From assembly GCA_016793885.1 (NCBI GenBank), contig JAEUHE010000065.1, positions 1-64,000 on the forward strand: a DNA stretch of 64,000 bases, given 5' to 3'. The translations under genes and the position numbers were made by a program. Positions within the stretch are counted from its first letter, which is position 1. Each line of letters starts with the position of its first letter. Below, one piece after another: positions 11,101 to 24,308 of the stretch. This DNA is from Verrucomicrobiales bacterium. Lineage in GTDB: Bacteria > Verrucomicrobiota > Verrucomicrobiia > Limisphaerales > UBA11320. The notes below the pieces were generated by a model. It did not search any database. It was not told where the DNA came from and saw only the letters and a program-made list of their open reading frames with translations.

Positions 11101-11365
11101 ATACATCGCCGGAACCAATCCGCGCGACCTCGGAAGCTCCTTGCGGTTGACGGTTCTGTCGGAGTCGGGAGCGCTCCAGCTCCGTTTTTCGGCCTTGGCT
11201 GGCCGCACCTACACCGTGTTTCGACGGAGCCAGATCGCGGATGGAGAATGGGTCGCGTTCGCGCAGATCCCCTCCGAACCGAATGACCGCGCCATTTCCA
11301 CTGAAGTTCCTGCCGGGTTGCCGGGGGTGAGTCAGTATTTCCGTCTGGTCGTTTCGAAGCCCTAG
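5153..11365 (+). CDS. giant secreted CotH-kinase-family protein with lamin-tail domains
   Basis: Exported protein of about 2070 aa. ATG 5153 gives a good signal peptide (MKLCTLGVLVCAVVLVPASSFA); a TTG at 5132 is a weaker start. Domains in order, approximate residues: lamin-tail domain (25-175), jelly-roll like that of beta-galactosidases (190-345, LRPLVDDGAVIYLNG), discoidin-like module (351-540), second lamin-tail (561-676), second jelly-roll (682-870, LRPVIDDGAVFYLNG), second module (883-1045), third lamin-tail (1063-1196), carbohydrate-binding-like region (1203-1343), CotH kinase-like domain (1483-1850), a DxDxDG calcium-type repeat (from 1943) and a C-terminal tail. The CotH part holds PWDMD at 1763-1767, matching the acidic metal-binding motif of the family. 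CotH proteins phosphorylate secreted proteins in spore formers; the role here is unknown. Confidence 0.9.
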   Translation: MKLCTLGVLVCAVVLVPASSFANGLVVFNEVMYHPVDEEPKREWVELHNQNVVDVDLSGWRLTEGIGYTFPTGTLIRGGGYLVVAIDPGTMAAEVDGANVVGPFTGRLSNSGERLELRDLSGRLMDSLSYGVDGNWPVGPDGGGVSLAKRNPRVASDSSSDWGVSAELGGTPGRANFAGAILTGPAIQELRWDAAWRYQDEGVDLGDSWRAPNFDASAWKTGSGLFVSGETPVPGPRGTVLAAGPNTYYFRTSLTIQGDPASRVWTLRPLVDDGAVIYLNGVESARINMRTGVVAYATQAASSVGNPAVGPTLTIPASQWVEGENQIAVEVHQNSGLTNSGLRVIPVSGVTVTWDGKDGDYFSAASPASAPANDASTTTGTLAVGSSNTNLVRNLNDGRYGARSSWTPLGSDTSPFVYLNFKRQIGVLSVAWSRDNGDTTESECGGTCTDGSLGNYTLQYTLAADPATLTATGSNPTNSWTTLATVQHLSVQPGFTPSLRHRFALATTSGLPIQATAIRLRVPAGASVDELEVNTPSLSNSDAVFGIEVASAPLLPPPPALRFNEVSDARRSGFWLELINVGEAAVSLDGVEIVRSGGTPGRFVGSAGSINPGEMRVLTQAELGFSAEDNQKLFLYGAAGSALLDAVTVRTRVRGRSADGLGDWQFPVGASPGASNRFALQRDVVINEIMYRHRPIDASPAIVSNLVMLPLGAAWKYHDGGLDLGSGWRSSSYDDSLWPAGDGLFQFAAASLPAAAATTLAPGRQTYYFRTRFQLSQVDSDQSVFLRPVIDDGAVFYLNGEELGRVNLPAGTIIYSTSASENVLDADFGQPVVIPASRLRVGENVLAVEVHQRVGATTSTGITINGGGLRLVEEGPVGNTAPNNLAREAGASPFAINSLAGFPIHNVVGLTDGVYGNGNSWIGNSGTPGYAAVRLAGVRTVSSIAFGRDNQGTLGDRTLGTYTVQYTEVASPDTTTTATGDSKTGWKTIGTLNYQSAGSGLFSNPSRRHRFTFNPVEATAIRLLVPATGIGGGTCIDELEINPPETAGDVVFGAELVMSTTLAPAVPFSTSPEEWIELHNRGANPVDLSGWRLDGGIDYVFPAGVTIPAQGYIVVAREAAALRTLWPEVATRIWGDFEGRLSSGERVSIKDAFGNLANEVRVFGGVWSDGGGSSLELIDPHADNDHRSAWADSDETQRSDWQTVTYRMISGQRFGSSDWNEFRIGMLDAGECLMDDISVVRDPRGVRQQLIQNGDFEVTTGATRWRLLGNHDGSQIISEPGNPANHVLKVSATGPARTSHNHIESSFVGNTRLVDRQEYEVSYRAKWLAGSPQLHTSAYFQRLARATLLTMPRRHGTPGAVNSRRVPNAGPVLSQLHHSPLTPRTNEPVIITVQASDPDEVASAILSYRVNPAATYTNVPMDRGLDGLWRGAIPGFAAGKVVQFYVRAEDALGVASFAPADGPRSRALYQVTDNQSSRVAAREFRLIQFDADRDALLRSTNVMSQQRQRGTVIYNRNEVFYDIGVRLHGSAAGRARDGDDYMSYDVEFSPDQLFRGIHSHVGIDRSGRAPNVRQQDEIYVLHMFHRAGLPCHRVDLCYFIAPRTGHTGPAILQLGAYDGLFVEEQFGEDGAVYNLDLTYEPSTTVNGNYESLKLPVPLQAHIGTDFADLGDDKEQYRYPFNTRLNERADDFSGIMRLCKTMGAPQVQFNAQIGTALDVDRAARHTALTILCGIGDNYFSSTPSLPHNARIFTPSDGGMASFLPWDMDFVFTQPTDSSIFPTTSANISKLINFPATRRLYLWHVNDLCQGAFNSGYLGPWLAHYGTVVGQNYSAASTYIQSRRAAALRQLPVAVPFAITNNGGNSFEVATNQVTLSGTAWIDIRALRLAGNSNSLAVNWVDVTRWQVTLPLARGANSLVLEAMGAGTNIVAVDQIVITSTASGADADLDGDGMPDEWELANGLNPAVADATGDLDADGLSNLQEYIAGTNPRDLGSSLRLTVLSESGALQLRFSALAGRTYTVFRRSQIADGEWVAFAQIPSEPNDRAISTEVPAGLPGVSQYFRLVVSKP

Positions 11366-11366
11366 C

Positions 11367-11419
11367 GGCGGATGCCGCCGCCAGAAGGCACTGCGTGCCT
11401 AGAGATAACAGCCTTCTGG
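11367..11419. repeat. nested palindromes just after the CotH gene
   Basis: GGCGG-ATG-CCGCC (11367-11379) is followed by a larger hairpin with arms CCAGAAGG (11381-11388) and CCTTCTGG (11412-11419), which contains an inner hairpin GGCAC-TGC-GTGCC (11387-11399). It starts two bases after the stop codon. There is no T-run, so a Rho-independent terminator is not clear. It may be a transcript-stabilising hairpin or a dispersed palindrome. Confidence 0.5.
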
Positions 11420-11533
11420 TATCCAAGGGCTTTGGCCACGAGTTTCGGGACAGGCCGTTGGTCGTGCATGTAATTTCGAGTTCATTTTTTGGAATCGTTC
11501 AGTCAACAACCCAAAACAAGAAAGGTCAGAGAG

Positions 11534-14500
11534 ATGAATCTGCATACTCACACGTTCAGCTCAGTATCCTGCCGTCTCCGCGGTTGGAGCGCAGGGCTGG
11601 CAGTTGCCGGCCTGATGCCGGCCCTGGTCGGTCAACTCGAAGCGGCCCACCCCCGAGTGATCCTTACTCCGTCCCCCGGCTTTTCCATTAGCTGGGATGG
11701 AAACAACGGTGGGTACAGCAGTCCGGACGCCGGAGCCTCTGCTCCCGACAATGAGGCCAGTGTCGGCCGGGGTTCGATACCTCTCGGCAGCTCCGAGCTC
11801 GGGTTGGGATCTCACCTGATCCAGCACATTAACGACGGTTTATATGGCAACTCGCACAGCTGGATTTCGGATCGCGGCACCGGTGGCGGAACCGATCCAG
11901 ACCCGTTTTTCGGGGTTGTTTTTCCAGCGCCGGTGGCGTTGCAAAGCATCGCGTGGGGCCGGGACAATGGAGATGCCGTTGAAGGAGCATGCGGGGGAAC
12001 GTGCCGCGATCGGAACGTGGGCATCTACACACTCCAGTTCACCCAGGTCTCCGGGCCGGCCATCGACACCGCTGAAACCGGTGACCCAGCGACCGGTTGG
12101 GCAAACATTGGGACTGTGGAATACGCGGCTGGAACGGACTCGCGGGAGTTTTCCGGGTATCTGCGTCACCGGTTCGAGGTTTCGCAAGGCGGAGCGGCGT
12201 TCAATGCCTCCGCCATTCGAATCAAGGTCTCCGATGGCCTGACGTGTGTGGATGAGCTGGAGGTGAATCCGCCGGAGGATCCGATCCCGCCTCTGAGCAA
12301 CTTTCTGGTCATTGCCAGTCAGCCCGGGTTCAGCATCGACTGGGATGGCAACAACGGAAAACTGAACGATCCTTCGACCCCCGCCTTGGCACCCCAGAAT
12401 CGCGCTAGCGTATCGACGGGAACCAAGGCCTTTGGAAGCAGCGAGCTTGGGCTGAATACGCACTTCATCACGAACGTGAACGATGGTCTCTATGGAAATG
12501 CGCACAGTTGGATCTCGGCGAACGGCATTGGAGGCGCCACCGATCCTGATCCTTACGTCGGTCTCAACTTCGGCGGGCTCATCGAGCTGAAGCGCCTGGC
12601 CTGGAGCCGCGACAATGGCGACGTGGCGGGCGACTGCTGCGGAGGGACTCTGACCGACCGAGCGGTCGGTGTGTACACCCTCCAGGTCACTCGGGTTAAC
12701 AATCCTGGCACCGCCACTGCTGACACGGGCGATGCGGCCACGGGATGGGCGACTGTTGGTACTTTCGAGTATAAGGCAGATGGCGAGCCTTTCACCACGG
12801 CGCTCCGCCACCGCTATGGGCTGGCACTCTCTGCCGGCGGTGGCATTCCAGCGACCGGGCTGCGCCTGAAGGTTTCCAAGGGCGACATGGCCATCGATGA
12901 AATCGAAGTCAACCCGTTCATCGCCGTTGAGGAGGATCTGGGCGACGCTGTGGTCATGACTCCTGAGGGGACCTACAGCATTGCCTGGGATGGAAACGAC
13001 GGTGAGTACAACAGTCCTCTCGCCGGCGCACGCGCTCCGGCACACGATGGCCTGGCCTCGCGCGGAGCTGCGGCGATTGGCAGCAGTGAGTTGGACTTCG
13101 GCATTCATTTCATCCGAAACATCAATGACGGGTTTTATGGAAACAGCAGCAGCTGGATCTCGGATCGCGGGGTAGGGGGGGGGAACGACCAGGACCCGTG
13201 GGTCGGTCTCGCTTTGGGACGTGAGGTTCTCATCAGCACCCTGGCATGGGGACGCGATAACGGCGATGCCACTGAGGGCGGATGCGGCGGCACCTGCACG
13301 GATCGATCCCTGGGCATTTACACCATTCAGGTGACCCGAATTCCGGCACCCGACAAGGAGACCCTGGAGACCGGCGACGCGTCCACGGGATGGGAAACGG
13401 TCGGTACGGTGGACTATCGCCGCGCTGTCGCTCCTGCGTTCAATCCCTCGCTGCGCCATAGTTTCCTAGTCGCCAAAGACGGTCAGCCGATTGCGGCGAC
13501 CGGCGTTCGCGTCAAGGTTTCGGACGGCAACCGCGCGATCGATGAGCTGGAGGTGAACCCGAGTTCGGCCACCACGGCTCCTCCGGTCACGGATCTGCTG
13601 GTCATCAGCCCGGCCTCGGGATTCGGAATCAGCTGGGATCGAAACGACGGCGATTTCGCGAACCCGGTCGCAGGGGCTTCTGCTCCTCGCAATCAAGCTT
13701 TGGCCACTCGTGGTGCTGTGGCCTTCGCCAGCAGTGAGCTGGACTTCGGTGTGCACTTTGTCCGGAACTTGAATGACGGCTTGTATGGGAACAGCCACAG
13801 CTGGATTCCCGACTTCGCGGCGAAGCCCGATGCCAATCCGTTCTGCGGTATCAAGTTCGCTGGGCAGAGGCTCGTCCGCAGCATCGCCTGGGGACGCGAC
13901 AACGGCGACGCCACTGAATCCGCCTGTGGAGGCACTTGCAACGATCGGGCTCTCGGTCTTTACACACTCCAGTTTACCCGAGTGGAAAACCCGGGACTAG
14001 ACCTGGCGGAGACAGGCGATGCCGCCACGGGTTGGGAGACGATCGGAACGGTGAATTACAAGGCCGCCTTTGCCAGTGTGTTCAACCCGCACCTGCGTCA
14101 TCGCTTCGATGTCAGCCAGGGCGGATCGCCGCTGGTGCTTTCGGCTTTGCGAATCAAGGTGCCCAACAACCAGATCGCCATCGACGAAATCGAAGTCAAT
14201 CCCTTCCCCAGCGCTGATGAGAATGTTCTCCTGATGCAGCCAGAGGAGGGTTTTTTTATCGAATGGGATGGCAATAACGGCGATTTCAACTCGCCCTCTA
14301 CCCCCGCCCTGGCGCCTGACAACGATGCGTTGGCGAGCAACGGAGCGACCGCGTTCGGAAGCAGCCAGCTCGACTTTGGCGTTCACTTCATTCCCAACAT
14401 CAATGACGGGATGTATGGCAATGCACACAGCTGGATCGCCGACTTTGCAGCCACGGCGGATGCAGCTCCGGCCATTGGCGTGAGCTTCGGCCGTACGGTG

Positions 14501-15025
14501 GCGGTTGGCAGCATCGCGTGGGGACGAGACAATGGCGATGTCGCTGGTGATTGCTGCGGCGGGACACTCATCGATCGAGCGGCGGGTGCCTACACGCTCC
14601 AGTTCACTCAGGTTGAAAGCCCGAACAATGACACCCCGGAAACCGGAGATCCCAGCACAGGATGGGCCAACATCGGTCGGGTGACCTATCGAGGGGCAGG
14701 TTCGGCGGCCTTCCGTCATCACCTGCGTCATGAGTTCACGGTGAAGCAGAACGATGCACCGATTCCTGCGACGGGCATCCGCTTGCGGGTCTCCAGCAAT
14801 CAGATCGCCATCGACGAGCTGGAAATCAACACCCGGGTTCCAGTGCCGCGTCCGGTCATGTCGATCGTCCGGGATGGGAACGTCGCCGTCCTGAGCTGGC
14901 GCGGGGGCGGGGCTTTGGAAGTCGCCCCGGAGCCGACCGGCCCTTGGACATTCGTGGGCAACGTGACGAATCCGACGCGAGTCCCGCTCGACAATCCGAA
15001 CCGCCAGTTCTTCCGCGTTCGGTAA
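11534..15025 (+). CDS. secreted protein with five tandem discoidin-like modules
   Basis: Exported protein of 1163 aa built almost wholly from five modules of about 200 aa, starting near residues 45, 257, 473, 689 and 897. Each runs in the order F-I-WDGN(N/D)G, INDGxYGNxxSWI, IAWGRDNGD, a two-cysteine motif, DRxxGxYTLQ(F/V)T, TGWxxIGTVxY, LRHRF and IDELEVNP. The C-terminal 60 residues form a short beta-rich tail ending QFFRVR. ATG 11534 is chosen over a TTG at 11489 because it gives a signal peptide ending near LEAA and follows purine-rich AAAGGTCAGAGAG. No catalytic motif is seen. A ligand-binding or adhesive role is inferred from resemblance to F5/8C (discoidin) domains. A strong terminator follows. 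Confidence 0.9.
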   Translation: MNLHTHTFSSVSCRLRGWSAGLAVAGLMPALVGQLEAAHPRVILTPSPGFSISWDGNNGGYSSPDAGASAPDNEASVGRGSIPLGSSELGLGSHLIQHINDGLYGNSHSWISDRGTGGGTDPDPFFGVVFPAPVALQSIAWGRDNGDAVEGACGGTCRDRNVGIYTLQFTQVSGPAIDTAETGDPATGWANIGTVEYAAGTDSREFSGYLRHRFEVSQGGAAFNASAIRIKVSDGLTCVDELEVNPPEDPIPPLSNFLVIASQPGFSIDWDGNNGKLNDPSTPALAPQNRASVSTGTKAFGSSELGLNTHFITNVNDGLYGNAHSWISANGIGGATDPDPYVGLNFGGLIELKRLAWSRDNGDVAGDCCGGTLTDRAVGVYTLQVTRVNNPGTATADTGDAATGWATVGTFEYKADGEPFTTALRHRYGLALSAGGGIPATGLRLKVSKGDMAIDEIEVNPFIAVEEDLGDAVVMTPEGTYSIAWDGNDGEYNSPLAGARAPAHDGLASRGAAAIGSSELDFGIHFIRNINDGFYGNSSSWISDRGVGGGNDQDPWVGLALGREVLISTLAWGRDNGDATEGGCGGTCTDRSLGIYTIQVTRIPAPDKETLETGDASTGWETVGTVDYRRAVAPAFNPSLRHSFLVAKDGQPIAATGVRVKVSDGNRAIDELEVNPSSATTAPPVTDLLVISPASGFGISWDRNDGDFANPVAGASAPRNQALATRGAVAFASSELDFGVHFVRNLNDGLYGNSHSWIPDFAAKPDANPFCGIKFAGQRLVRSIAWGRDNGDATESACGGTCNDRALGLYTLQFTRVENPGLDLAETGDAATGWETIGTVNYKAAFASVFNPHLRHRFDVSQGGSPLVLSALRIKVPNNQIAIDEIEVNPFPSADENVLLMQPEEGFFIEWDGNNGDFNSPSTPALAPDNDALASNGATAFGSSQLDFGVHFIPNINDGMYGNAHSWIADFAATADAAPAIGVSFGRTVAVGSIAWGRDNGDVAGDCCGGTLIDRAAGAYTLQFTQVESPNNDTPETGDPSTGWANIGRVTYRGAGSAAFRHHLRHEFTVKQNDAPIPATGIRLRVSSNQIAIDELEINTRVPVPRPVMSIVRDGNVAVLSWRGGGALEVAPEPTGPWTFVGNVTNPTRVPLDNPNRQFFRVR
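11665..14835 (+). repeat. five diverged in-frame repeats of about 640 bp
   Basis: DNA-level view of the five modules, beginning near 11665, 12304, 12952, 13600 and 14223. They are clearly diverged (different cysteine motifs, different loop lengths), so they are old intragenic duplications and not an assembly artefact. The same module occurs once in the sensor kinase and twice in the CotH protein. Confidence 0.85.
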
Positions 15026-15048
15026 GGACTACTTGAACTCATCTCCAG

Positions 15049-15085
15049 CCCGGCATTGATTCGAAAGAATCGGTGCCGGGTTTTT
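15049..15085 (+). terminator. Rho-independent terminator of the tandem-module gene
   Basis: CCCGGCA...TGCCGGG encloses a second stem GATTC/GAATC with a GAAA tetraloop (15049-15080) and is followed by five T residues (15081-15085). It lies 24 bp after the stop codon at 15025. Confidence 0.92.
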
Positions 15086-15145
15086 CCATTCGAGAGGCGG
15101 GTTGAGTGAGGGGTTACCAAGCCTGGCGGCCTGGGTACGGCGAGA

Positions 15146-15231
15146 TGGTGGTAGGAACTGGATTCGAACCAGTGAAGGCGTAAGCCAGCAGATTTACAGT
15201 CTGCCCCCGTTGGCCACTTGGGTATCCTACC
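15146..15231 (-). tRNA. tRNA-Tyr (GTA anticodon)
   Basis: Reading the minus strand, the acceptor arm GGTAGGA (from 15231) pairs with TCCTACC near the 3' end, and CCA is encoded (15146-15148). The anticodon arm GCAGACTGTAAATCTGC carries GTA, followed by a long class II variable arm and a TTCGAATCC T-loop, all typical of bacterial tRNA-Tyr. The length of 86 nt includes CCA. Confidence 0.95.
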
Positions 15232-15327
15232 CGCCGTCTCTTGTCCATCGGACGAAGAGCGGCCAGATTAAGCCAAAGCCAGGGGTATCTTGTCAATGGA
15301 AGGAACTAGCTGTTTTTAGGTCGCGAT

Positions 15328-16701
15328 TTAGCTCGCCGACCCGGCTTCGGTGATGGCGGCCTCCAGGATGGTTAGAGCGCGGTCCATTTCTTGCCTCGAG
15401 ATGGTCAAGGCGGGGGTCAGTGTGAGGATGTTTCCCATGGTGATTTTGAAGCTGAGTCCCTTGGAAAAGCAGGAATACATGACTCGTTCAGCAAGTTCTG
15501 CCGCGCGGGAATCGGAGCCGTGGCTTGAACCCAGCACGACGCCCATCAAGAGGCCCAGCCCTCGCACTTCGGCGATTACTGGGTGCCGAGCCTTCATGGC
15601 TTGCAGCCGTCCCAGCGTGTAGGCCCCCAGCTCGGTCGTTCGGGCGAGGAGGTTTTCCTTGTGAATAATGTCGAGGGTGGCCAACCCCGCCGCGCAGGCC
15701 ACGGGATTCTTCTCGTGGGTGTAGTGGCCGAGCGCGCGGTCTTGCATCGCGCTATTCAGTGAGTCCCTGGCCAGGAGCGCTGCGAGCGGGAACACGCCTC
15801 CTCCGAGTCCCTTGCCCAGCACCAGCATGTCGGGAACCACATCGAAATGCTCGACGGCGAACAGGCGTCCCGTTCGTCCCAGGCAGGTCGGGATCTCGTC
15901 CAAAATCAACAAGGCGCCATGACGGTCGCAAGCGGCTCGGATCCGCTTCCAGTAGTCGAGCGGCGGGATGAAGGGAGTGCACCGCACGGTTTCCGCGATC
16001 ACGGATGCGACATCCCCCTCTTTCTCCATGACATACTCCACATAGTCGGCGCAGCTGAGGTTGCACGAGCCGGCGCAACGAAATGGGCACTCGCTGGGGT
16101 TGGGGGGCGGGACATGCTCGCATCCGGGTAGCAGTGGGCCGCACCCCTTGCGAAACATAGCCTCGCCACCAACCGAGATGGCATCGAGCGAGGCTCCATG
16201 GAACGAATCCCACATCGAGATGGTTTTGTAGCGTCCGGTGGCAACTCGAGCGAGCTTGATGGCCATGCCGATGGCCAGGCTGCCGGCCGGGGCAAAGAGG
16301 ACGCGTTTCAGATCGCCGGGAGCGAGCTCGGTTAAGCGTTTGGCCAGCTCGATCGCCGGAACGTTGGTGTAGCGTCGTGGGCAGAAGGACAGTTCTTGGA
16401 GCTGGTGAGTGATGGCCTCGATCACTTCGGGATGAGCGAAACCTACCTGGTGCACATTGTTGCCATGAAAGTCGAGCAGCGTGCGCCCCCGAGTATCGGT
16501 GAATTCCGGGCCTTTGCAGCCGGTCAACACATTCAGGCAGGGCGTCGAGAGAGACTGATGAAGAAAGTAGCGCGCATCCTCCGCCAGCAAGGCTCGGGTC
16601 TCGGCATCGATGTGCTGCGAGGACCAGGCCTTCCGTTGCGGGGATTGGTTGAGATCCCCCTCGGACCTTAGCCCTTCCAGCGGATCTAGGGAATCAGACA
16701 T
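15328..16701 (-). CDS. pbfA: class III PLP enzyme, probable (R)-1-hydroxy-2-aminoethylphosphonate ammonia-lyase
   Basis: Fold-type I PLP enzyme of 457 aa from the class III aminotransferase family. The PLP lysine is K297 (LGKGLGGG) and D268/E269 lie in LILDEIPTCLGRTGR. A cysteine-rich stretch near 194-217 (CEHV...CPFRC...CNLSC) is unusual for ordinary ornithine-type aminotransferases. It is the last gene of a phnW-phnA-phnY cluster, 67 bp after phnY. Known biology: PbfA, a class III family member found in aminoethylphosphonate clusters, converts (R)-1-hydroxy-2-aminoethylphosphonate to phosphonoacetaldehyde and ammonia, feeding PhnY. The specific call rests on context. An ordinary aminotransferase is the alternative. 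Confidence 0.72.
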   Translation of the reverse strand: MSDSLDPLEGLRSEGDLNQSPQRKAWSSQHIDAETRALLAEDARYFLHQSLSTPCLNVLTGCKGPEFTDTRGRTLLDFHGNNVHQVGFAHPEVIEAITHQLQELSFCPRRYTNVPAIELAKRLTELAPGDLKRVLFAPAGSLAIGMAIKLARVATGRYKTISMWDSFHGASLDAISVGGEAMFRKGCGPLLPGCEHVPPPNPSECPFRCAGSCNLSCADYVEYVMEKEGDVASVIAETVRCTPFIPPLDYWKRIRAACDRHGALLILDEIPTCLGRTGRLFAVEHFDVVPDMLVLGKGLGGGVFPLAALLARDSLNSAMQDRALGHYTHEKNPVACAAGLATLDIIHKENLLARTTELGAYTLGRLQAMKARHPVIAEVRGLGLLMGVVLGSSHGSDSRAAELAERVMYSCFSKGLSFKITMGNILTLTPALTISRQEMDRALTILEAAITEAGSAS

Positions 16702-16768
16702 AGGTCCTCTCCGCGTGAGGGTGGGCGTTTACTTCATTCATGACAGCTAAATCTTGCGGCGGGGCGGA

Positions 16769-18184
16769 TCACCAGGGAAGGCTGAACGTTTTGACGAAAC
16801 TAAAACACTTAATGGCTTCGATGACTCCCTCCTTAATGCCGAGCCCGCTGTCCTTGATTCCGCCAAACGGGCTGCTCTCGATGCGGAAGCCCGGCACTTC
16901 GTTGATGTTCACCGTGCCACATTTGAGGCGCTTGACCGCCTGGAGTGCGGAGTCGAGAGAGCGGGTGACCACTCCCGAACTGAGCCCGAAGGCGGTGCTG
17001 TTGGCGAGTTCGATGGCATCGTCGAGGCTCTTGATGGCCAAGATGGGCGCCAGTGGGCCGAAGCTTTCGCAATCGACCATGCGGCAACCGCGTGGGACCT
17101 GGCTGATGACCGTGGGAGGATAGAGGGCGCCCCGGCGTTCTCCCCCAATCAGCACTCGAGCCCCGGCGGCGACTGCTTCCTTGACCACTGTGTCGAGATA
17201 GATGGCGGAGTTTTCGTCGATTACCGTCCCGACGCGAGTCGCCTCGTCCAAGGGATCGCCACAGACGTATTCCCGGGTTTTGGCCACCAGGCGATCGGTG
17301 AACTCCGCCAGGATTTTCTGGTGGATGAGCAGCCTCTTGACGGCGGTGCAGCGCTGTCCGGAATTGCGATAGCTACCCTCGGCGGCCAGATGCACAGCCA
17401 GATCCAGATCGGCATCCTCCAGGACAATCAGCGGATCGTTGCCGCCGAGCTCCAGCACCAGCTTTTTATAGCCGGCATTGGCCGCGATCCGTTTGCCGAC
17501 CTCGACACTTCCAGTGAAGGACACCAGTTCCACGCCGGGATCGACAACCAGCGGCTCTGTGACTTCCGAACGCGACCCCAGCAGCACGCTCAACATGGGT
17601 CCTGGCAACCCAGCCTCGTAGAGCAGTTCGGCGAACTTCAGGGCAGTCAATGGCGTCTTTTCCGACGGTTTGAGGATGATCGGGGTGCCCGCGGCGATGG
17701 CGGGCGCGAGCTTATGCGCCACCTGGTTCAGCGGGTGGTTGAAGGGCGTGATGCAGACGGCGCAGCCCAGGGGTTCCCTGAGGGTGAAGATTTTGCGCTC
17801 CTTCCCCTGCGGTGAGACGTCGCAGGAAAAAATCTGGCCGTCATCACGCAACGCTTCGATCGAAGCAAAGCGCAATACGTCCAACGCACGGCCGGTTTCA
17901 TAGCGACCTTCCCGAATGCAGAGCCCCGCCTCGCTGGCGATGAGGTGTGCGAATTCATCGCGTCGGGCCTCGAGCAGCAGCCGGGCCTTGTCGAGGATCA
18001 TCGAGCGTTGGTAGCGTGACGGGGTTTCCTTGAAGGCACGGGCGGCCGCGATCGCTTCTTCTGTCTGGGCATGAAGGGCCAAGGTCACCGTGCCCACGAC
18101 AGCCCCGTTGTAGGGGCTTTTCACCGTCAATTCAGGGCCGGCCGTGGCGGGCTTTCCGGCAACATAGCAAGGGAGCTTCAGCAT
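16769..18184 (-). CDS. phnY: phosphonoacetaldehyde dehydrogenase
   Basis: Aldehyde dehydrogenase of about 471 aa that would oxidise phosphonoacetaldehyde to phosphonoacetate with NAD. The family catalytic residues are in place: C279 (NSGQRCT), general base E245 (LELGGND) and N149 (TPFNHP), with SFTGS in the cofactor site. ATG 18184 lies 15 bp after the phnA stop and gives MLKLPCYVAGK; an in-frame TTG at 18199 is less likely. The substrate is assigned from its place between phnA and pbfA; by family alone it is a generic aldehyde dehydrogenase. Confidence 0.85.
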   Translation of the reverse strand: MLKLPCYVAGKPATAGPELTVKSPYNGAVVGTVTLALHAQTEEAIAAARAFKETPSRYQRSMILDKARLLLEARRDEFAHLIASEAGLCIREGRYETGRALDVLRFASIEALRDDGQIFSCDVSPQGKERKIFTLREPLGCAVCITPFNHPLNQVAHKLAPAIAAGTPIILKPSEKTPLTALKFAELLYEAGLPGPMLSVLLGSRSEVTEPLVVDPGVELVSFTGSVEVGKRIAANAGYKKLVLELGGNDPLIVLEDADLDLAVHLAAEGSYRNSGQRCTAVKRLLIHQKILAEFTDRLVAKTREYVCGDPLDEATRVGTVIDENSAIYLDTVVKEAVAAGARVLIGGERRGALYPPTVISQVPRGCRMVDCESFGPLAPILAIKSLDDAIELANSTAFGLSSGVVTRSLDSALQAVKRLKCGTVNINEVPGFRIESSPFGGIKDSGLGIKEGVIEAIKCFSFVKTFSLPW

Positions 18185-18199
18185 AGATCGGGTTCTCAA

Positions 18200-19465
18200 T
18201 TAGTCGCACTGGATACCATTTAGGGTGAAATCGAAGATCTGGTAGTTACGGGGATCGCCCAATGCCCGGGTGGCGTAGGCGGGGCGCAGCGGGGCGCTGA
18301 AGAGGAAGGGCACCATCTCCTCGTATCGCCCGCCATGGGAGCGCAAGCCGCCTTCGATGGCTTTGAGATCGTGATACTCGGGAGTGCGGCCCAGCACCGC
18401 ATCCCGACCAGAGCATACCACCAGATCCCCCATGCGGTCCGATGGAAGCTCCATCAATCGGGCGGCTGTGCTGCGGTCCAAAACCTCGGAGACCCCGCGT
18501 TGCTTCAGCAGCCAGGCGCTCACTTCGGCGAGGGCGGGGGCGGAGGTCAAAGCCGTCGGCACATGGACCTGAGCGAACGAGCCGAGTGCTCCATGGTGAA
18601 CGACGTAGGGATCGGTGATGGGCAAGATCACCCGGAATCCTGGGCCAAATTTTTGAACCAGCTCGCTCTCCAGGTAGAACACGTTGGGTGAACCGTCCGC
18701 ATTCTGCTTGGCATTCATCCCATGGTCGGCGGTGATGCCGAGCACTGCGCCCAGCTTCAGCATGCGGCCGATCTCGGCGTCGATGCCGGCGTAGAAATCC
18801 ACTGCTTCCGCTGCAGCCGGCGCATATTTGTGCTGCATGAAGTCGGTGGTGGAGAGGTAAAGGAAATCGGCGATCCCCTTTTCGATCAGGGCTGTGCCTG
18901 CCTTCAGCACGTAGAGGCTCGCATCGCCACTGTAGATCTGCGGGGTCGGCCCGACCAGTGATTCGACCTTCTCGATGCCGTGAGTGGGCATCGCCGCCTG
19001 GCCCGCCTTCTCGGAGGAGAAGGCGATTCCCCCCTTCTGCAGGAGGCCGGATGCAAAGATGTCGCGCAGCTTCTCCTTGGCGGTCACCACGGCGACCTTC
19101 CTTCCGGATTGCGCGGCGGCCGGGAACAACGTTTCACAGCGGAGGAACTTGGAGGAGTTCATCATGACCTCCTGGCCGATGGAGGTGTCGAAAAAGAAAT
19201 TTCCTCCGATCCCGTGCACGCTGGGGGGCACTCCGGTGACGATCGAGCTGTTGTTCACGTTGGTGAACGATGGCATTGCCCCGCGAGCGACCCCGCGGTA
19301 GCCGCTGAGGATCATGCCTTTCAGGTTTGGCATTCGATCGCGAATGAGCGCGGCGTTGAGATACTCATCGGAGGATCCGTCCAAGCAGATCACTGCCACC
19401 GGGCGAGCTGGTGGGGTGTATTGGATGCCATTGGCGGAAAACGGCTGACGCGTGGGATGGGGCAT
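18200..19465 (-). CDS. phnA: phosphonoacetate hydrolase
   Basis: Alkaline-phosphatase-superfamily zinc enzyme of 421 aa that cleaves the C-P bond of phosphonoacetate to acetate and phosphate. The expected residues are visible: D29 (ICLDG), nucleophile T68 in PSFTNVNN, D208 and H212 (TTDFMQH), D247/H248 (TADHGMN) and a late RSHGGRYEE histidine. T68 and D29 fall at the numbers I recall for the characterised Sinorhizobium enzyme, while the others are offset by three. This is not the unrelated zinc-ribbon protein also called PhnA. It is the second gene of the cluster. Confidence 0.92.
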   Translation of the reverse strand: MPHPTRQPFSANGIQYTPPARPVAVICLDGSSDEYLNAALIRDRMPNLKGMILSGYRGVARGAMPSFTNVNNSSIVTGVPPSVHGIGGNFFFDTSIGQEVMMNSSKFLRCETLFPAAAQSGRKVAVVTAKEKLRDIFASGLLQKGGIAFSSEKAGQAAMPTHGIEKVESLVGPTPQIYSGDASLYVLKAGTALIEKGIADFLYLSTTDFMQHKYAPAAAEAVDFYAGIDAEIGRMLKLGAVLGITADHGMNAKQNADGSPNVFYLESELVQKFGPGFRVILPITDPYVVHHGALGSFAQVHVPTALTSAPALAEVSAWLLKQRGVSEVLDRSTAARLMELPSDRMGDLVVCSGRDAVLGRTPEYHDLKAIEGGLRSHGGRYEEMVPFLFSAPLRPAYATRALGDPRNYQIFDFTLNGIQCD

Positions 19466-19569
19466 GGGCAGTGTTTAGGGTAATGGGTCTGGTTGAAAGT
19501 CAGGGCAGGTGGTTTCCGGTCGTGGTGGTGGTCGTGAATGCCATGGCGATGCGCGTGGGGCTTAACGAC

Positions 19570-20706
19570 TCAGGGCACCTTCAGTTCCAGTTCTCGAACC
19601 GTCTCGGCGACCGCGCCCAACAGGCCGCGCATGTCCGCTTCGAAAAGTCGCCCGATGTTCCCGATGCGGAAGAGATCAGCCTGGCTGATCTTCCCCGGGT
19701 AGATGATGTACCCCTTGTCGCTGAGGCTGCGGTAGAAGCGATCAAACGTGAAGCGGGGATCGGAGGGAAAATAGAAGCTGGTGATGATATAGCTTTGGAC
19801 CTCGGCGGGCAGATAGGAGCGGAAGCCAAGACGTTTCATGCCTTCGACGAGCACGGCATGATTTCGCTGATATCGGAGCGCGCGGCCGGCGATGCCTCCC
19901 TCCTGGTGCAGTTCGACCAGCGCCTGCTCGAAGGCCAGCAGGCTGTGGGTGGGGGGAGTGTAACGGAACTGGCCGTTTTTCTCGAATCCTTTGAGCTGCG
20001 CCACCAGATCCAAGCTCAGGCTGCGCGCCCACCCTTCACATCCGAGCAGCAGCTGACGACGGCAAATGACGAAGCTGAAGCCCGGCACACCTTCGATGCA
20101 CTTGTTGGCGGATGAGATCAGGTAATCAATCCCGCAAGCCTCGAAGTCGATGGGGATCGCGCCAAAACTGCTCATGGCATCCACGATATAGACGCGCCGG
20201 TGCTTTCGGGCCACTTCCCCGATGGGCTGGATCCGGTTCAGGACGCCTGATGTCGTCTCGCAGTGGACGGCCATGACGTGGGTGATGGCTGGATCTTGTG
20301 CGAGAAGCTGATCGAGCGCGGCGGGATCGGGCGGGGTGTCTTCGCCGGTCCGTAGCACGACGTGATCGATCTTGGCGTGCTTCAGCATGGTGGCGGCCCT
20401 TTCGCCATAGGCTCCGTTGGCGAGCACCACGACCTTACCTTGGGGAGGCACGCAGGTCAGAAACACGGCTTCCACGCCAAAAGTTCCGCTGCCCTGCATC
20501 AGCACCGCTTCCCATCCACTCTCACGGGACACTCCCGCCAGCGCGAGCAGCGCTTCGCGGATGGCGCTCACTCGCGCATTGAATTCGAAATGCCACGATC
20601 CGGCATCGTGGAGCATGGCCGACTTCACCGAAAGTGAGGTCGTCAACGGCCCGGGGGTAAACAAAGTCTTGTCTCGATCGGTCACTAGCACATCGGCTCG
20701 CTTCAT
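19570..20706 (-). CDS. phnW: 2-aminoethylphosphonate--pyruvate transaminase
   Basis: Class V PLP aminotransferase of 378 aa. It makes phosphonoacetaldehyde and alanine from 2-aminoethylphosphonate and pyruvate. Visible features are LFTPGPLTTS near the N-terminus, QGSGTFGVEA, the PLP-binding aspartate D176 (YIVDAMSSFG) and the Schiff-base lysine K202 in SSANKCIEGVPGF, a strong PhnW signature. It is the first gene of the minus-strand cluster, 104 bp before phnA. No phnX (phosphonatase), transporter or regulator lies next to it, so uptake must be encoded elsewhere. Confidence 0.95.
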   Translation of the reverse strand: MKRADVLVTDRDKTLFTPGPLTTSLSVKSAMLHDAGSWHFEFNARVSAIREALLALAGVSRESGWEAVLMQGSGTFGVEAVFLTCVPPQGKVVVLANGAYGERAATMLKHAKIDHVVLRTGEDTPPDPAALDQLLAQDPAITHVMAVHCETTSGVLNRIQPIGEVARKHRRVYIVDAMSSFGAIPIDFEACGIDYLISSANKCIEGVPGFSFVICRRQLLLGCEGWARSLSLDLVAQLKGFEKNGQFRYTPPTHSLLAFEQALVELHQEGGIAGRALRYQRNHAVLVEGMKRLGFRSYLPAEVQSYIITSFYFPSDPRFTFDRFYRSLSDKGYIIYPGKISQADLFRIGNIGRLFEADMRGLLGAVAETVRELELKVP

Positions 20707-20851
20707 AACGTGGCCCTGTTGTAGCGGGGCGGCTCGAGTTTGGGAATACTCAACTGGAGATTGTGTGTTGGATGGAACGAGGCTAGGCTGGTTTAGACCG
20801 CCTGGTCCGGCTGTTTTGTGTCAGGTGGATCCGCTGGCAGGTTCATTGATC
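20707..20851. promoter_or_regulatory. divergent intergenic region between phnW and a secreted-protein gene
   Basis: The 145-bp gap between divergent starts must carry the phnW-cluster promoter. GAGTTTGGGAATACTC (near 20734-20749) has short inverted ends and could be an operator. No Pho-box-like direct repeats or clear -35/-10 pair were recognised. Confidence 0.3.
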
Positions 20852-22348
20852 ATGCGAACGATGGTTCGATTCGGGCTCTGGATGAATGTTTCGAGTGTGA
20901 GCGCCTCTCAGCAGGCCTCCGCTCGTGAATTTTCTTCATGCTTTCCATGGGCCTCCCCGCATGGAGTTCCGCCTTCAGGCGGTCTCCGGACGGCTCTCCG
21001 TGCAGGGTTCGCAGCTCGCGTGTGCTCGGCGCTTCTCGTTTTGCTCTGCGGGTTTCCTTCTTTGCGCGCCGCCGAGCCGGTGACACGAATCAGCCTTTCC
21101 CAACAATTTGTGGTTCGCGGCGTGCCGATCGACACACCACTCGCGATTCGGCCCAGTCTAGGTAGCGATCAGATGAACCTGGAGCCGGCCACCGCCGTGG
21201 TTTCCTGCGAGCGCATCAAGGAACAGGTGTTGCGGGAGTTGGGTGCCGCCGATCAATGGAAAGGAAAGATCTATTTGCGGCTGCACCCTCGATTGAGCGA
21301 TGAGGAGCGTGTGATGGTGGATGCTCAATCGCGAGCCGAAGGATGGGTGTATTTCGTGGACATGCCCGCCTTGATCAGCCGAAGGCGATTCCTCAACTCG
21401 ATGGTGCAGATCATTCTGTTTGAGTGGGCCAATCGCGGGGCTCAAACGGTCCCGTCCGAACTGCCGCCGTGGTTGGGTGAAGGTCTGGCGGGACTGCTCG
21501 AGGCTCGAGGTATAATGAGTCTCTTTGCTGAACCCTTCAGCCGACGGATCGAGATCCAGCGCTGGGAGGTCGCTGCGTTGGAACTACGCAAGCGGTTTCA
21601 AGCCACCCCGCCGCTGTCTTTCGATCAGCTGAGCTGGCCGCTGAAGAACCCCGATGCTGCTCAGGCAGACCATTACCGGGCTTCGGCCCATTTGCTCGTG
21701 GCCGAGTTGCTCCGTATGGAAAACGGTCCGCGGAACCTGGTCGGCTTGTTGCAGGGACTGCACCAGAACCTCAACTGGCAGACGACGTTTCTACGGGCTT
21801 TCGGAGCCCGCTTTAGTCGTCTGGTCGATGTCGAGAAATGGTGGACTGTGGCGGTCATGCACTTCTTGGGTTTGGATGAGAGCCGTCGGATGGCTCCGGA
21901 GGATGTGCTGGGACAGCTTCATGAGATTCTCATCGTACCGCTTGATGTTCAGGTGAATACGAATCGCATTCTCAACGCCGCCCGGGCTACTCTTCAACAG
22001 ATCATCCCGGAATGGGAAGTGCACCGGCTGGACCCCGTGCTTTACCGCAAGATTGCTCAACTGGAAGGCCTGCAGTGGCGTAGCCCACAGCCCGTTTCCG
22101 GGCTGGTCGCGAACTATCGGGCGGTGCTGTTAGACTTCATCGCCCGACGCAATGCCGCCAGCGGCACGACCCGGAGTCGGAATGAGGTTTTGCCCAATGC
22201 CAAGATCGTGCAAAACAAAGTGATTCAATCACTTACATTGCTGGATCAGGAGCGTGTCCGGCTGGCCGCGAGTTTGCAGCCCGCCACTACCTCCGATAAG
22301 CCGGTCGGGGGTACGAATGGCGTGGCCGGACCGCCGAGGTCGCCTTGA
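20852..22348 (+). CDS. secreted protein with a gluzincin-like region lacking HExxH
   Basis: Protein of 498 aa from ATG 20852. A hydrophobic export segment (about 57-73, ALLVLLCGFPSLRAAE) lies unusually far from the start, because residues 38-44 (GVPPSGG) are encoded by a dispersed palindrome at 20963-20982. A GTG within CGCGTGTGC, about 20 codons before the mature part, would give a normal signal peptide. The middle holds PPWLGEGLAGLLEARG, like the WLxEGxA helix of peptidase-MA/M1-type gluzincins, but the preceding helix reads IILFEWANR where HExxH is expected. It may be a pseudopeptidase or scaffold. The function is not known. Confidence 0.7.
   Translation: MRTMVRFGLWMNVSSVSASQQASAREFSSCFPWASPHGVPPSGGLRTALRAGFAARVCSALLVLLCGFPSLRAAEPVTRISLSQQFVVRGVPIDTPLAIRPSLGSDQMNLEPATAVVSCERIKEQVLRELGAADQWKGKIYLRLHPRLSDEERVMVDAQSRAEGWVYFVDMPALISRRRFLNSMVQIILFEWANRGAQTVPSELPPWLGEGLAGLLEARGIMSLFAEPFSRRIEIQRWEVAALELRKRFQATPPLSFDQLSWPLKNPDAAQADHYRASAHLLVAELLRMENGPRNLVGLLQGLHQNLNWQTTFLRAFGARFSRLVDVEKWWTVAVMHFLGLDESRRMAPEDVLGQLHEILIVPLDVQVNTNRILNAARATLQQIIPEWEVHRLDPVLYRKIAQLEGLQWRSPQPVSGLVANYRAVLLDFIARRNAASGTTRSRNEVLPNAKIVQNKVIQSLTLLDQERVRLAASLQPATTSDKPVGGTNGVAGPPRSP
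20963..20982. repeat. dispersed palindrome GGAGTTCCGCCTTCAGGCGG, inside a coding region
   Basis: The perfect hairpin CCGCCT-TC-AGGCGG is preceded by GGAGTT. Identical copies occur at 25597-25616 and 62512-62531, and a near-identical inverted copy lies at about 62599-62615. Here it is read in frame as residues 38-44 of the secreted protein. Confidence 0.85.
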
Positions 22349-22382
22349 CACACCATTGACTCGTCCTATAGTCCGCCCCGCA

Positions 22383-23621
22383 ATGCACATATCTTCGTCA
22401 GTCCGCCCCGCTGCGGACGCTGTCGAAAACGCGAGGTTCGAGGCGCTTAAAGCCTTCCGGTCCGCCGGTCGTGGATTCTGGTCTCATGTTCCTGATGCTG
22501 AATGGAATAGCTGGCAATGGCAGCTCAAGAATCGGATCACCAACCTCACGAGTTTGCAGAGGCTCATGCCGACGCTGACCCCGGAAGAACTTGCCGGTGT
22601 TCAATTGGCCAATACCAAGCTGGCCATGGCGATTACGCCCTACTTTTTTAGTTTAATCGATGCAGCGGACGAAAATTGTCCGATTCGGTCGCAAGTCATT
22701 CCTCGTCTCGAGGAAACGTCCACCGCGCCGTGGGAAATGAGCGACCCTTGCGGCGAGGACAGTCACTCGCCGGTGCCCGGATTGGTGCATCGTTATCCGG
22801 ACCGGGTGTTGTTCCTGGTTACGGACCGTTGCGCCGCCTATTGCCGCTACTGCACGCGTTCCCGATTGGTGAGCAACGCGACGGGCTATGATTTCCATCC
22901 GGAATTCGACCGGCAGATTGAGTACATTGCCAAAACCCCCTCGGTTCGGGATGTCCTGTTGAGCGGGGGAGATCCTTTGTTGTTCAGCGATGAGAAGCTC
23001 GAGTTTCTGCTGAGCCGTCTGCGTGCCATTCCGCATGTGGAATTTCTTCGGATAGGCACACGCATTCCCTTGTTTCTTCCCCAGCGGATCACCCCGGAGC
23101 TGTGCTCCATGCTCAAGCAGTATCATCCGCTGTTCATGAGCATTCACTCCAACCACCCGCGCGAATTGACCACGGAGGTGCGCGATGCCTTGGGTCGTTT
23201 GGCCGATGCCGGCATTCCTTTAGGGAACCAATCCGTGCTCCTGCGGGGAGTGAATGATGATCCGTTGGTGATGAAGGCCCATCTGCAGAAGTTGCTGATG
23301 TGCCGGGTTCGCCCCTATTACATCTACCAGTGTGATTTGATCGCTGGATCTTCCCATCTCCGGGCCAGCGTGCGCAAAGGATTGGAGATCATGCAGAGCT
23401 TGCGGGGCCACACGACGGGCTATGCGGTGCCCCAGTTTGTGATCGATGCTCCCGGAGGAGGAGGCAAGGTTCCGATCAATCCGGAGTATGTGCTCCAGCA
23501 CAATGCGGATCGCGTGGTGTTTCGAAATTTTGAGGGCAAGGTGTTTGAGTATCCTGAGGCTGCCGACGGCACCCCTTTGGTGGGGGCTCCGAAGTCCAGC
23601 GAGCAGCCCGAGTGGGCCTAA
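22383..23621 (+). CDS. KamA-family radical SAM aminomutase (lysine 2,3-aminomutase type)
   Basis: Radical SAM enzyme of 412 aa that also uses PLP. The 4Fe-4S cluster cysteines are C150, C154 and C157 (TDRCAAYCRYCTR). The PLP lysine is K362 in DAPGGGGKVPINP. Both acidic residues known to bind the lysine side-chain amine in lysine 2,3-aminomutase appear conserved: the D of YQCDLIAGSSH and the D just before APGGGGK. That supports L-lysine to beta-lysine conversion over glutamate as substrate. ATG 22383 lies 34 bp after the previous stop; an upstream in-frame start would overlap the neighbour. No beta-lysine acetyltransferase or EF-P gene is nearby, so the pathway is open. Confidence 0.9.
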   Translation: MHISSSVRPAADAVENARFEALKAFRSAGRGFWSHVPDAEWNSWQWQLKNRITNLTSLQRLMPTLTPEELAGVQLANTKLAMAITPYFFSLIDAADENCPIRSQVIPRLEETSTAPWEMSDPCGEDSHSPVPGLVHRYPDRVLFLVTDRCAAYCRYCTRSRLVSNATGYDFHPEFDRQIEYIAKTPSVRDVLLSGGDPLLFSDEKLEFLLSRLRAIPHVEFLRIGTRIPLFLPQRITPELCSMLKQYHPLFMSIHSNHPRELTTEVRDALGRLADAGIPLGNQSVLLRGVNDDPLVMKAHLQKLLMCRVRPYYIYQCDLIAGSSHLRASVRKGLEIMQSLRGHTTGYAVPQFVIDAPGGGGKVPINPEYVLQHNADRVVFRNFEGKVFEYPEAADGTPLVGAPKSSEQPEWA

Positions 23622-23639
23622 GCCGAGCCTGGAATCTTC

Positions 23640-24308
23640 ATGCCGCGCGAAGCGAGTCGAGACCGGGCAGATCGCCTGAACCGGATTCTTGCGATCCTAG
23701 CCCGGACCTACCCGAACGCTTACTGCGAGCTCAACTATCGAAATCCCCTCGAGCTGTTGGTAGCCACGATTCTCTCCGCGCAGTGCAATGACAAGCAGGT
23801 GAACATTGTGACCGAGTCCCTGTTTGCCAAGTATCGAACCGCCACGGACTACGCTCAGGCTTCGCTGGAAGCTCTGGAGAACGATATTCGCCGGATCGGG
23901 CTATACCGCAATAAGGCCAAGAACATTCAGTCGGCCTCTCGGCAGCTTTTGGAGCGGCATGGCGGCGACGTGCCGCAGACGATGGAGGCGCTGACGGCCT
24001 TGGCAGGGGTGGGACGCAAGACAGCGAATGTGGTGTTAGGGAACGCCTTTGGGATCAACGTGGGTGTGGTGGTGGATACGCATGTTCAGCGCCTGTCGCA
24101 GCGGCTTGGTTTTACGCGGGAGAAAACACCCGAGAAGATCGAGTTGAGTCTCATGAAGCAAGTGCCCTCGGATCAGTGGACGGTCTTCAGTCATCGGCTC
24201 ATCTGGCATGGGCGTCGCCGTTGCATGGCGCGGAACCCGGACTGTGCTGAGTGTGAACTCGCTGAGCTGTGCCCGAGTCGGAAAGCGTCCGATCCTCAGG
24301 AAGCGTAG
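23640..24308 (+). CDS. nth: endonuclease III (DNA glycosylase/AP lyase)
   Basis: Base-excision repair enzyme of 222 aa for oxidised pyrimidines. The helix-hairpin-helix ALAGVGRKTANVV carries catalytic K127, and D146 lies in VVVDTHVQRLSQRLG. The C-terminal iron-sulfur loop has four cysteines, C195, C202, C205 and C211, in the C-x6-C-x2-C-x5-C pattern. Length and motifs are typical. It starts 18 bp after the aminomutase stop, so co-transcription is likely. Confidence 0.96.
   Translation: MPREASRDRADRLNRILAILARTYPNAYCELNYRNPLELLVATILSAQCNDKQVNIVTESLFAKYRTATDYAQASLEALENDIRRIGLYRNKAKNIQSASRQLLERHGGDVPQTMEALTALAGVGRKTANVVLGNAFGINVGVVVDTHVQRLSQRLGFTREKTPEKIELSLMKQVPSDQWTVFSHRLIWHGRRRCMARNPDCAECELAELCPSRKASDPQEA

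Follow-up and report, generated by a model that had tools for sequence, protein, structure and literature searches.

Which phosphonates could be degraded through a compact cluster of carbon-phosphorus genes at positions 15,328-20,706 of a 64,000-nt stretch of a Verrucomicrobiales bacterium genome (contig JAEUHE010000065.1, positions 1 to 64,000; the whole stretch is hereafter called the window), and what does the class III pyridoxal phosphate (PLP) enzyme of this cluster contribute? A first-pass annotation had read phnW, phnA and phnY as a route from 2-aminoethylphosphonate (AEP) to acetate and phosphate, and had considered the class III enzyme to be a probable PbfA with (R)-2-amino-1-hydroxyethylphosphonate (R-HAEP) as a second substrate. 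On the basis of the gene identities and order, signature residues, phylogenetic placement and genome-wide co-occurrence observed here, we interpret phnW, phnA, phnY and pbfA as a catabolic operon of a Verrucomicrobiota bacterium, through which AEP and R-HAEP would both be converted via phosphonoacetaldehyde into acetate and phosphate (estimated probability about 0.88). The activities of the four proteins, their co-transcription and the use of the products for phosphorus, nitrogen or carbon are predicted from sequence.

In the proposed pathway, PhnW would convert AEP and pyruvate into phosphonoacetaldehyde and alanine, and PbfA would eliminate the hydroxyl group of R-HAEP to give a product that loses ammonia, again yielding phosphonoacetaldehyde. 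PhnY would oxidize this intermediate to phosphonoacetate, which PhnA would cleave into acetate and phosphate. Uptake would probably depend on a protein encoded elsewhere, the best candidate being a DUF5690 membrane protein on another contig of the genome (C62). For the window proteins, these steps are assumed by homology to described enzymes. According to Zangelmi et al. 2021 (PMC8154272), PbfA of Vibrio splendidus releases phosphonoacetaldehyde and ammonia from R-HAEP but shows no activity on S-HAEP or AEP; Ruffolo et al. 2025 (PMC12366243) describe PhnY followed by PhnA giving acetate and phosphate.

The assignment of the AEP branch was borne out by our analysis. All four proteins clear the curated NCBIfam equivalog cut-offs (Table 1), and phnW, phnY and phnA occur together in a genome with no phosphoenolpyruvate (PEP) mutase above its cut-off, which is the pattern of the hydrolytic PhnWYA pathway. 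PhnA, PhnY and PhnW align near full length with the solved enzymes 1ei6, 4i3t and 1m32, respectively, and conserve PSFTN, TTDxxQHK, TADHG and RSHGG (PhnA), NSGQRC and LELGGND (PhnY) and SSANKC (PhnW). We take the PhnA and PhnY stretches to be catalytic, and the lysine of SSANKC is presumably the PLP-binding residue of PhnW. The pattern of the PhnWX pathway was absent, as a search of the organism's own genome at E ≤ 1e-40 gave no PhnX. The best PEP mutase match in the genome reached 110 bits against a cut-off of 319.55 and scored 220.8 bits as methylisocitrate lyase (cut-off 354.4). Since the genome has no PEP mutase over the cut-off, PhnW is not likely to be part of phosphonate synthesis; a synthetic role was rejected on this ground, PEP mutase being the synthesis gene searched.

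Several lines of evidence support the identification of the fourth protein as PbfA. It scored 678 bits with the PbfA model NF049939, against 654 bits for the older, unspecific PRK06082 and at most 304 bits for other models (25 of 70 shown); its score with the ArgD-type model TIGR00707 was 232.7 bits against a cut-off of 410.05. Its gene is grouped with phnW and phnA-phnY, a context that fits PbfA. For the phylogenetic analysis, the best 80 named loci among the matches listed were fetched, together with six proteobacterial plasmid loci. NF049939 matched the own genome at 13 places, some of them fragments of one gene, and six of these paralogues had enough coverage for inclusion (L008 and places without a locus were left out). 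In the resulting tree of 122 rows, which was built by a fast method that flagged the outgroup branches as long, the window protein falls within a 101-row PbfA clade (SH-aLRT 100) together with the Vibrio and alphaproteobacterial PbfAs, with all six own-genome class III paralogues outside. This is the placement that the first-pass annotation had proposed as a check, and the protein does not group with the ornithine/acetylornithine aminotransferases that were named there as the contrary outcome. Its closest partner (support 93) lies on L022, a contig of the same-genus genome G516 (Verrucomicrobiales bacterium UBA11320), within a 28-row clade (97) composed entirely of Verrucomicrobiota except for one cytophagal and one unlabelled metagenome-assembled genome (MAG).

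Residue comparisons point in the same direction. H79, N81, H84, R109, R110, R240, H329, E330 and K331 are present in all 77 main-clade PbfA rows and P271 in 74 of them. These ten signature residues are all found in the six Vibrio-group and four alphaproteobacterial rows, and are absent from all six own paralogues and from the 15 other class III rows, of which one and eight, respectively, are gapped at 109/110. They are kept in 94 or 95 of 95 PbfAs from the order (His329, Glu330 and Lys331 in 95, 94 and 95), and the other non-cysteine positions compared are equally well conserved there, except W164 (85) and Y220 (81). G80 and F106 were dropped as signature positions, G80 being present in two own paralogues and one other class III row, and F106 in one and seven. 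Such conservation suggests that the signature positions may be important for catalysis; Lys297, which we take to be the PLP lysine, is present in all 77 main-clade rows and in all 21 other class III rows. The predicted structure (pLDDT, the predicted local distance difference test, 84.3) is that of a class III fold-type I enzyme, and a search for a PbfA structure gave none. Model score, clade and signature residues, the latter common to Vibrio and Ruegeria PbfA, thus support the earlier suggestion that the 15328-16701 protein is PbfA, and homology suggests R-HAEP lyase activity.

The window protein also carries four cysteines at positions 205, 209, 213 and 217 (C-x3-C-x3-C-x3-C), all of which are present in 81 of the 95 order PbfAs. 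None of them is found in Vibrio PbfA, three occur in Ruegeria and two in Ensifer. The motif is a possible candidate metal site; the loop was modelled at low confidence (block means of 54-67 for residues 161-210), at which its geometry is not readable.

With regard to distribution, PbfA exceeded the cut-off in four of 387 genomes drawn from the phylum. Among 293 genomes sampled from the order (the own genome is included in both samples), a pbfA match was found in 97 (96 over cut-off), phnA in 109 and phnX in 15. Of the 97 pbfA genomes, 69 also carry phnA. With phnX counted as an alternative the number rises to 81, an association with an odds ratio of 18 and a Fisher p of 1.7e-24, uncorrected for relatedness. 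Regions around all 96 other order pbfA matches were taken, 95 of which gave a pbfA match at the tblastn threshold used. Both phnA and phnY lie in the same stretch as pbfA in 18 of these 95 loci, 16 of which have phnW as well, and five further loci have just one of phnA and phnY. Flanks of at least 7.4 kb on each side were available for 41 loci; 23 of these contain any of phnW, phnA, phnY or phnX, and eight contain phnA together with phnY. As a separate observation, phnA and phnX were never found together in the 293 genomes at the thresholds used.

The best 80 named loci include 12 with pbfA, phnA and phnY. Ten are Verrucomicrobiota by title (L022, L025, L047, L051, L056, L063, L068, L069, L092 and L097), and the others belong to Terriglobia (L052, Acidobacteriota) and Aromatoleum (L099, Pseudomonadota). 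The eleven non-proteobacterial loci are MAG contigs, whose phylum labels depend on binning; the gene linkage itself is observed within single contigs. Ruffolo et al. 2025 (PMC12366243) state that pbfA combined with phnY and phnA "is only found in Proteobacteria". The trio-bearing contigs outside Proteobacteria contradict this statement, which underlies an argument on pathway evolution. That about one third of the sampled order genomes have pbfA, mostly together with phnA, suggests that these bacteria commonly meet R-HAEP as a source of phosphorus or nitrogen in their habitat. It had been remarked in the first-pass annotation that phosphonate use is little stressed for this phylum, which is a fair comment, although phosphonate genes were already known there: phnA has been reported in freshwater Verrucomicrobia by He et al. 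2017 (PMC5615132).

The history of the operon was examined in trees of PhnA (22 rows) and PhnY (19 rows). The window sequence groups with that of L022 in both (98/96 for PhnA, 97/96 for PhnY), inside Verrucomicrobiota-only clades (98/99 and 99/99) that exclude the small number of proteobacterial sequences and the single acidobacterial one in the trees. The operon therefore appears to have been retained in the lineage while its surroundings changed. L022 (= L179) has the same gene order, phnW-phnA-phnY-pbfA, with 77, 76, 79 and 72% identity, but its 9.6 kb contig lacks the tRNA and all seven neighbouring ORFs of the window; a match to the ORF at 20417 was not counted as flank conservation, as it is antisense to phnW. 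In another same-genus genome (G427), phnA and phnY face each other, the 18 kb taken contain neither pbfA nor phnW, and the genome has no pbfA.

A number of observations weigh against our interpretation. In the literature consulted, an in vitro assay of PbfA was found for V. splendidus only, and the window PbfA is about 49% identical to its Vibrio relatives and lies outside the Vibrio subclade. The NF049939 score alone is no proof, as a divergent second copy (in L053) still reaches 655 bits; ten such second copies in desulfobacterial/deltaproteobacterial-type loci carry R240S and P271I. At the thresholds used, phnA and phnX are both missing from 16 of the 97 pbfA genomes, and 18 of the 41 fully flanked order loci have no phnW, phnA, phnY or phnX near pbfA. 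In addition, no sigma-70-type promoter-like site was found in 14900-21100, and nothing resembling a Pho box was seen upstream of phnW; the Pho box search of the window gave two matches at three mismatches, one within phnY and one at 45910, which is below chance expectation. As to the second copies themselves, they share all signature residues other than R240 and P271 with PbfA, and the two PbfA-like genes lie less than about 2 kb apart in the ten loci (L053, L064, L065, L072, L079, L080, L082, L087, L091 and L093).

Three other explanations were considered. The class III enzyme could be an ordinary aminotransferase of the acetylornithine, GABA or omega type that lies beside phnWAY by chance, in keeping with Pfam, which sees only Aminotran_3, and with the nearest solved structures, class III enzymes of the racemase, decarboxylase and aminotransferase kinds that share about 30% identity with it. 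However, acetylornithine-type models reach at most 292 bits, against 678 for PbfA; position 271 is Pro, compared with Met, Ile, Tyr or Gln in the own paralogues, and positions 328-331 read THEK, where those paralogues end in Gly. With the tree and the genome co-occurrence also contrary, we regard this explanation as extremely improbable, and it was rejected on model scores, tree and residue comparison. Hardly more probable is a recent acquisition of the operon from Proteobacteria with the tRNA-Tyr marking the insertion point. Such an event would agree with the tRNA directly downstream, with the patchy occurrence of pbfA in the genus (two of five listed genomes, counting the own one and those of its genus) and with a gene order as in Ruegeria, but the grouping with L022 in all three trees and the Verrucomicrobiota-only clades of PhnA and PhnY speak against it. 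The GC content of 0.61 is the same as in the rest of the window, and no direct repeat of at least 14 bases (12-base seed) involving the tRNA was found within 10000-24000. Transfer at the tRNA was rejected for want of a repeat and in view of the trees.

A less remote, though still unlikely, explanation is that the PbfA subclade of the window acts on a different aminophosphonate, e.g., S-HAEP or a larger hydroxy-aminophosphonate, with phosphonoacetaldehyde or a similar compound still the product. The position of the window clade outside the Vibrio and alphaproteobacterial subclades, its conserved four-cysteine motif and the 18 fully flanked loci without neighbouring phn genes would be consistent with such a shift. 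On the other hand, the window protein agrees with V. parahaemolyticus PbfA at 23 of 24 non-cysteine positions (the exception being T427), phnA or phnX is kept in most pbfA genomes as described above, and the gene order equals that of the Ruegeria phnWAY-pbfA cluster.

Coordinates of the unit and its features are listed in Table 1 and agree with those of the first-pass annotation. The genes are transcribed in the order phnW-phnA-phnY-pbfA with intergenic gaps of 104, 0 and 67 bases, and the nearest long flanking ORFs (11489-15025 and 20417-22348) are both on the plus strand. The former encodes 1178 amino acids, is internally repetitive (five units of about 640 bases) and has no Pfam match at E 0.001.

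Table 1. Features of the phosphonate locus, with window coordinates and supporting evidence
Feature	Position	Strand	Evidence
phnW, 2-aminoethylphosphonate:pyruvate aminotransferase, 378 aa	19570-20706	minus	PRK13479 491.6 bits (cut-off 296), TIGR02326 463.7 (400.8)
phnA, phosphonoacetate hydrolase, 421 aa	18200-19465	minus	TIGR02335 467.9 bits (cut-off 407.55)
phnY, phosphonoacetaldehyde dehydrogenase, 476 aa	16769-18199	minus	TIGR03250 647.1 bits (cut-off 635.65; narrow margin)
pbfA, class III PLP enzyme, probable R-HAEP ammonia-lyase, 457 aa	15328-16701	minus	NF049939 678.2 bits (cut-off 525), PbfA clade, signature residues, class III fold
pbfA codon of Lys297, presumed PLP lysine by alignment	15811-15813	minus	K in 77/77 main-clade PbfAs and all 21 other class III rows
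pbfA codons His329-Glu330-Lys331, PbfA signature	15709-15717	minus	Conserved in PbfA rows, 0/21 other class III rows
pbfA codons Cys205-Cys209-Cys213-Cys217, C-x3-C-x3-C-x3-C	16051-16089	minus	Each in 74-75/77 main-clade rows
tRNA-Tyr	15146-15231	minus	Between plus-strand ORF 11489-15025 and pbfA

The earlier remark that the cluster lacks its own transporter and regulator holds for the four-gene unit, within which no gene of either kind was found, and can be refined by a candidate transporter elsewhere in the genome. The genome search for transport covered the AepX and AepP types (PhnD, PhnS, AepS, PhoB/PhoR, C-P lyase, PbfC, PbfD and PbfF were not searched). It revealed no AepX-type binding protein (best 53.9 bits against a cut-off of 392.75) and no AepP-type ortholog, the best match by E-value to a GlpT-like major facilitator superfamily query from L021, whose likeness to AepP is itself inferred, being 27% identical. 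The genome encodes one DUF5690 (PF18943) protein (match at C62:15998-17128; ORF L244 7855-9180). Its neighbours are a phytase-like/GDPD protein and an HpnZ-like dehydrogenase, the latter scoring 308.1 bits with TIGR03366 (cut-off 328.1) and so falling short of it. In two relatives the HpnZ-DUF5690 pair is linked to phn genes, lying inside the cluster of L092 (pbfA-phnA-phnY-HpnZ-DUF5690-phnW) and closing the cluster of L063 behind phnY; L220 and L188 are parts of L092 and L063, respectively. The own DUF5690 protein shares 63% identity with that of L092 and 70% with that of L063, and DUF5690 was found in the fetched stretch of five of the 95 order pbfA loci. From this neighbourhood we would guess that DUF5690 is an aminophosphonate carrier. 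A text search of the literature, with subscription papers and preprints largely outside its coverage, found nothing on DUF5690. On contig C62 of the own genome, the phytase-like/GDPD, HpnZ-like and DUF5690 genes are consecutive (L244 2974-9180). A broader picture, tentative and on balance doubtful, would combine a long-standing R-HAEP breakdown by PbfA, PhnY and PhnA that is widely kept in the order, DUF5690 as an unrecognised aminophosphonate transporter family forming a unit with the HpnZ-like dehydrogenase, and the four-cysteine loop as a mark of a metal-binding PbfA variant.

Besides these genes, other families were observed near pbfA in the order. A HemL-like class III PLP enzyme occurs in 14 of the 95 loci (including L154, L188, L191 and L200); the one scanned (L051 5924-7225) is below the HemL cut-offs. 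An alkaline-phosphatase-superfamily phosphodiesterase is present in 17 and a weakly GDPD-like protein in 15 loci, often beside phnW (e.g., L021 6482-7393 and L032 9128-9979), and these proteins might free aminophosphonates from esters. Together with the DUF5690 uptake protein and the HpnZ-like dehydrogenase, the HemL-like enzyme and the phosphodiesterases, which possibly release aminophosphonates from larger molecules, are testable candidates for the parts that the cluster lacks. The own genome also encodes a PRK06062-like class III PLP enzyme, below cut-off (G000:C235, L107 6314-7762), whose identity is 73% to the enzyme encoded immediately after pbfA in L175 and 68% to those of the L069 and L097 phn clusters. 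A search of virus contigs gave six loci. One, on an IMG/VR contig filed as viral (L012 5001-6341), is PbfA-like and 52% identical to the window protein, and may come from a misfiled bacterial contig; the five others show 23-26% identity.

Compared with known systems, the window PbfA has the same signature residues as those of V. parahaemolyticus and V. campbellii, the Vibrio species compared (V. splendidus itself was not). V. parahaemolyticus has phnX where the window has phnY and phnA, and its PbfA lacks the four-cysteine motif. The enzymes of the window are those of alphaproteobacterial phnWYA-pbfA clusters such as that of Roseovarius nubinhibens in Zangelmi et al. 2021 (PMC8154272). Ruegeria sp. 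THAF33 even has the same gene order, phnW-phnA-phnY-pbfA, the fourth gene being annotated there merely as an aspartate aminotransferase family protein, and its PbfA is 50.6% identical to that of the window; unlike in the window, AEP ABC transporter genes and a LysR-type regulator adjoin the cluster. R-HAEP use has so far been linked to Proteobacteria and, via phnX, to other phyla. The system described here is of an enzymatically known kind, and what is new is mainly its distribution: the gene set for R-HAEP degradation via PhnY and PhnA occurs outside Proteobacteria and is common in one verrucomicrobial order.

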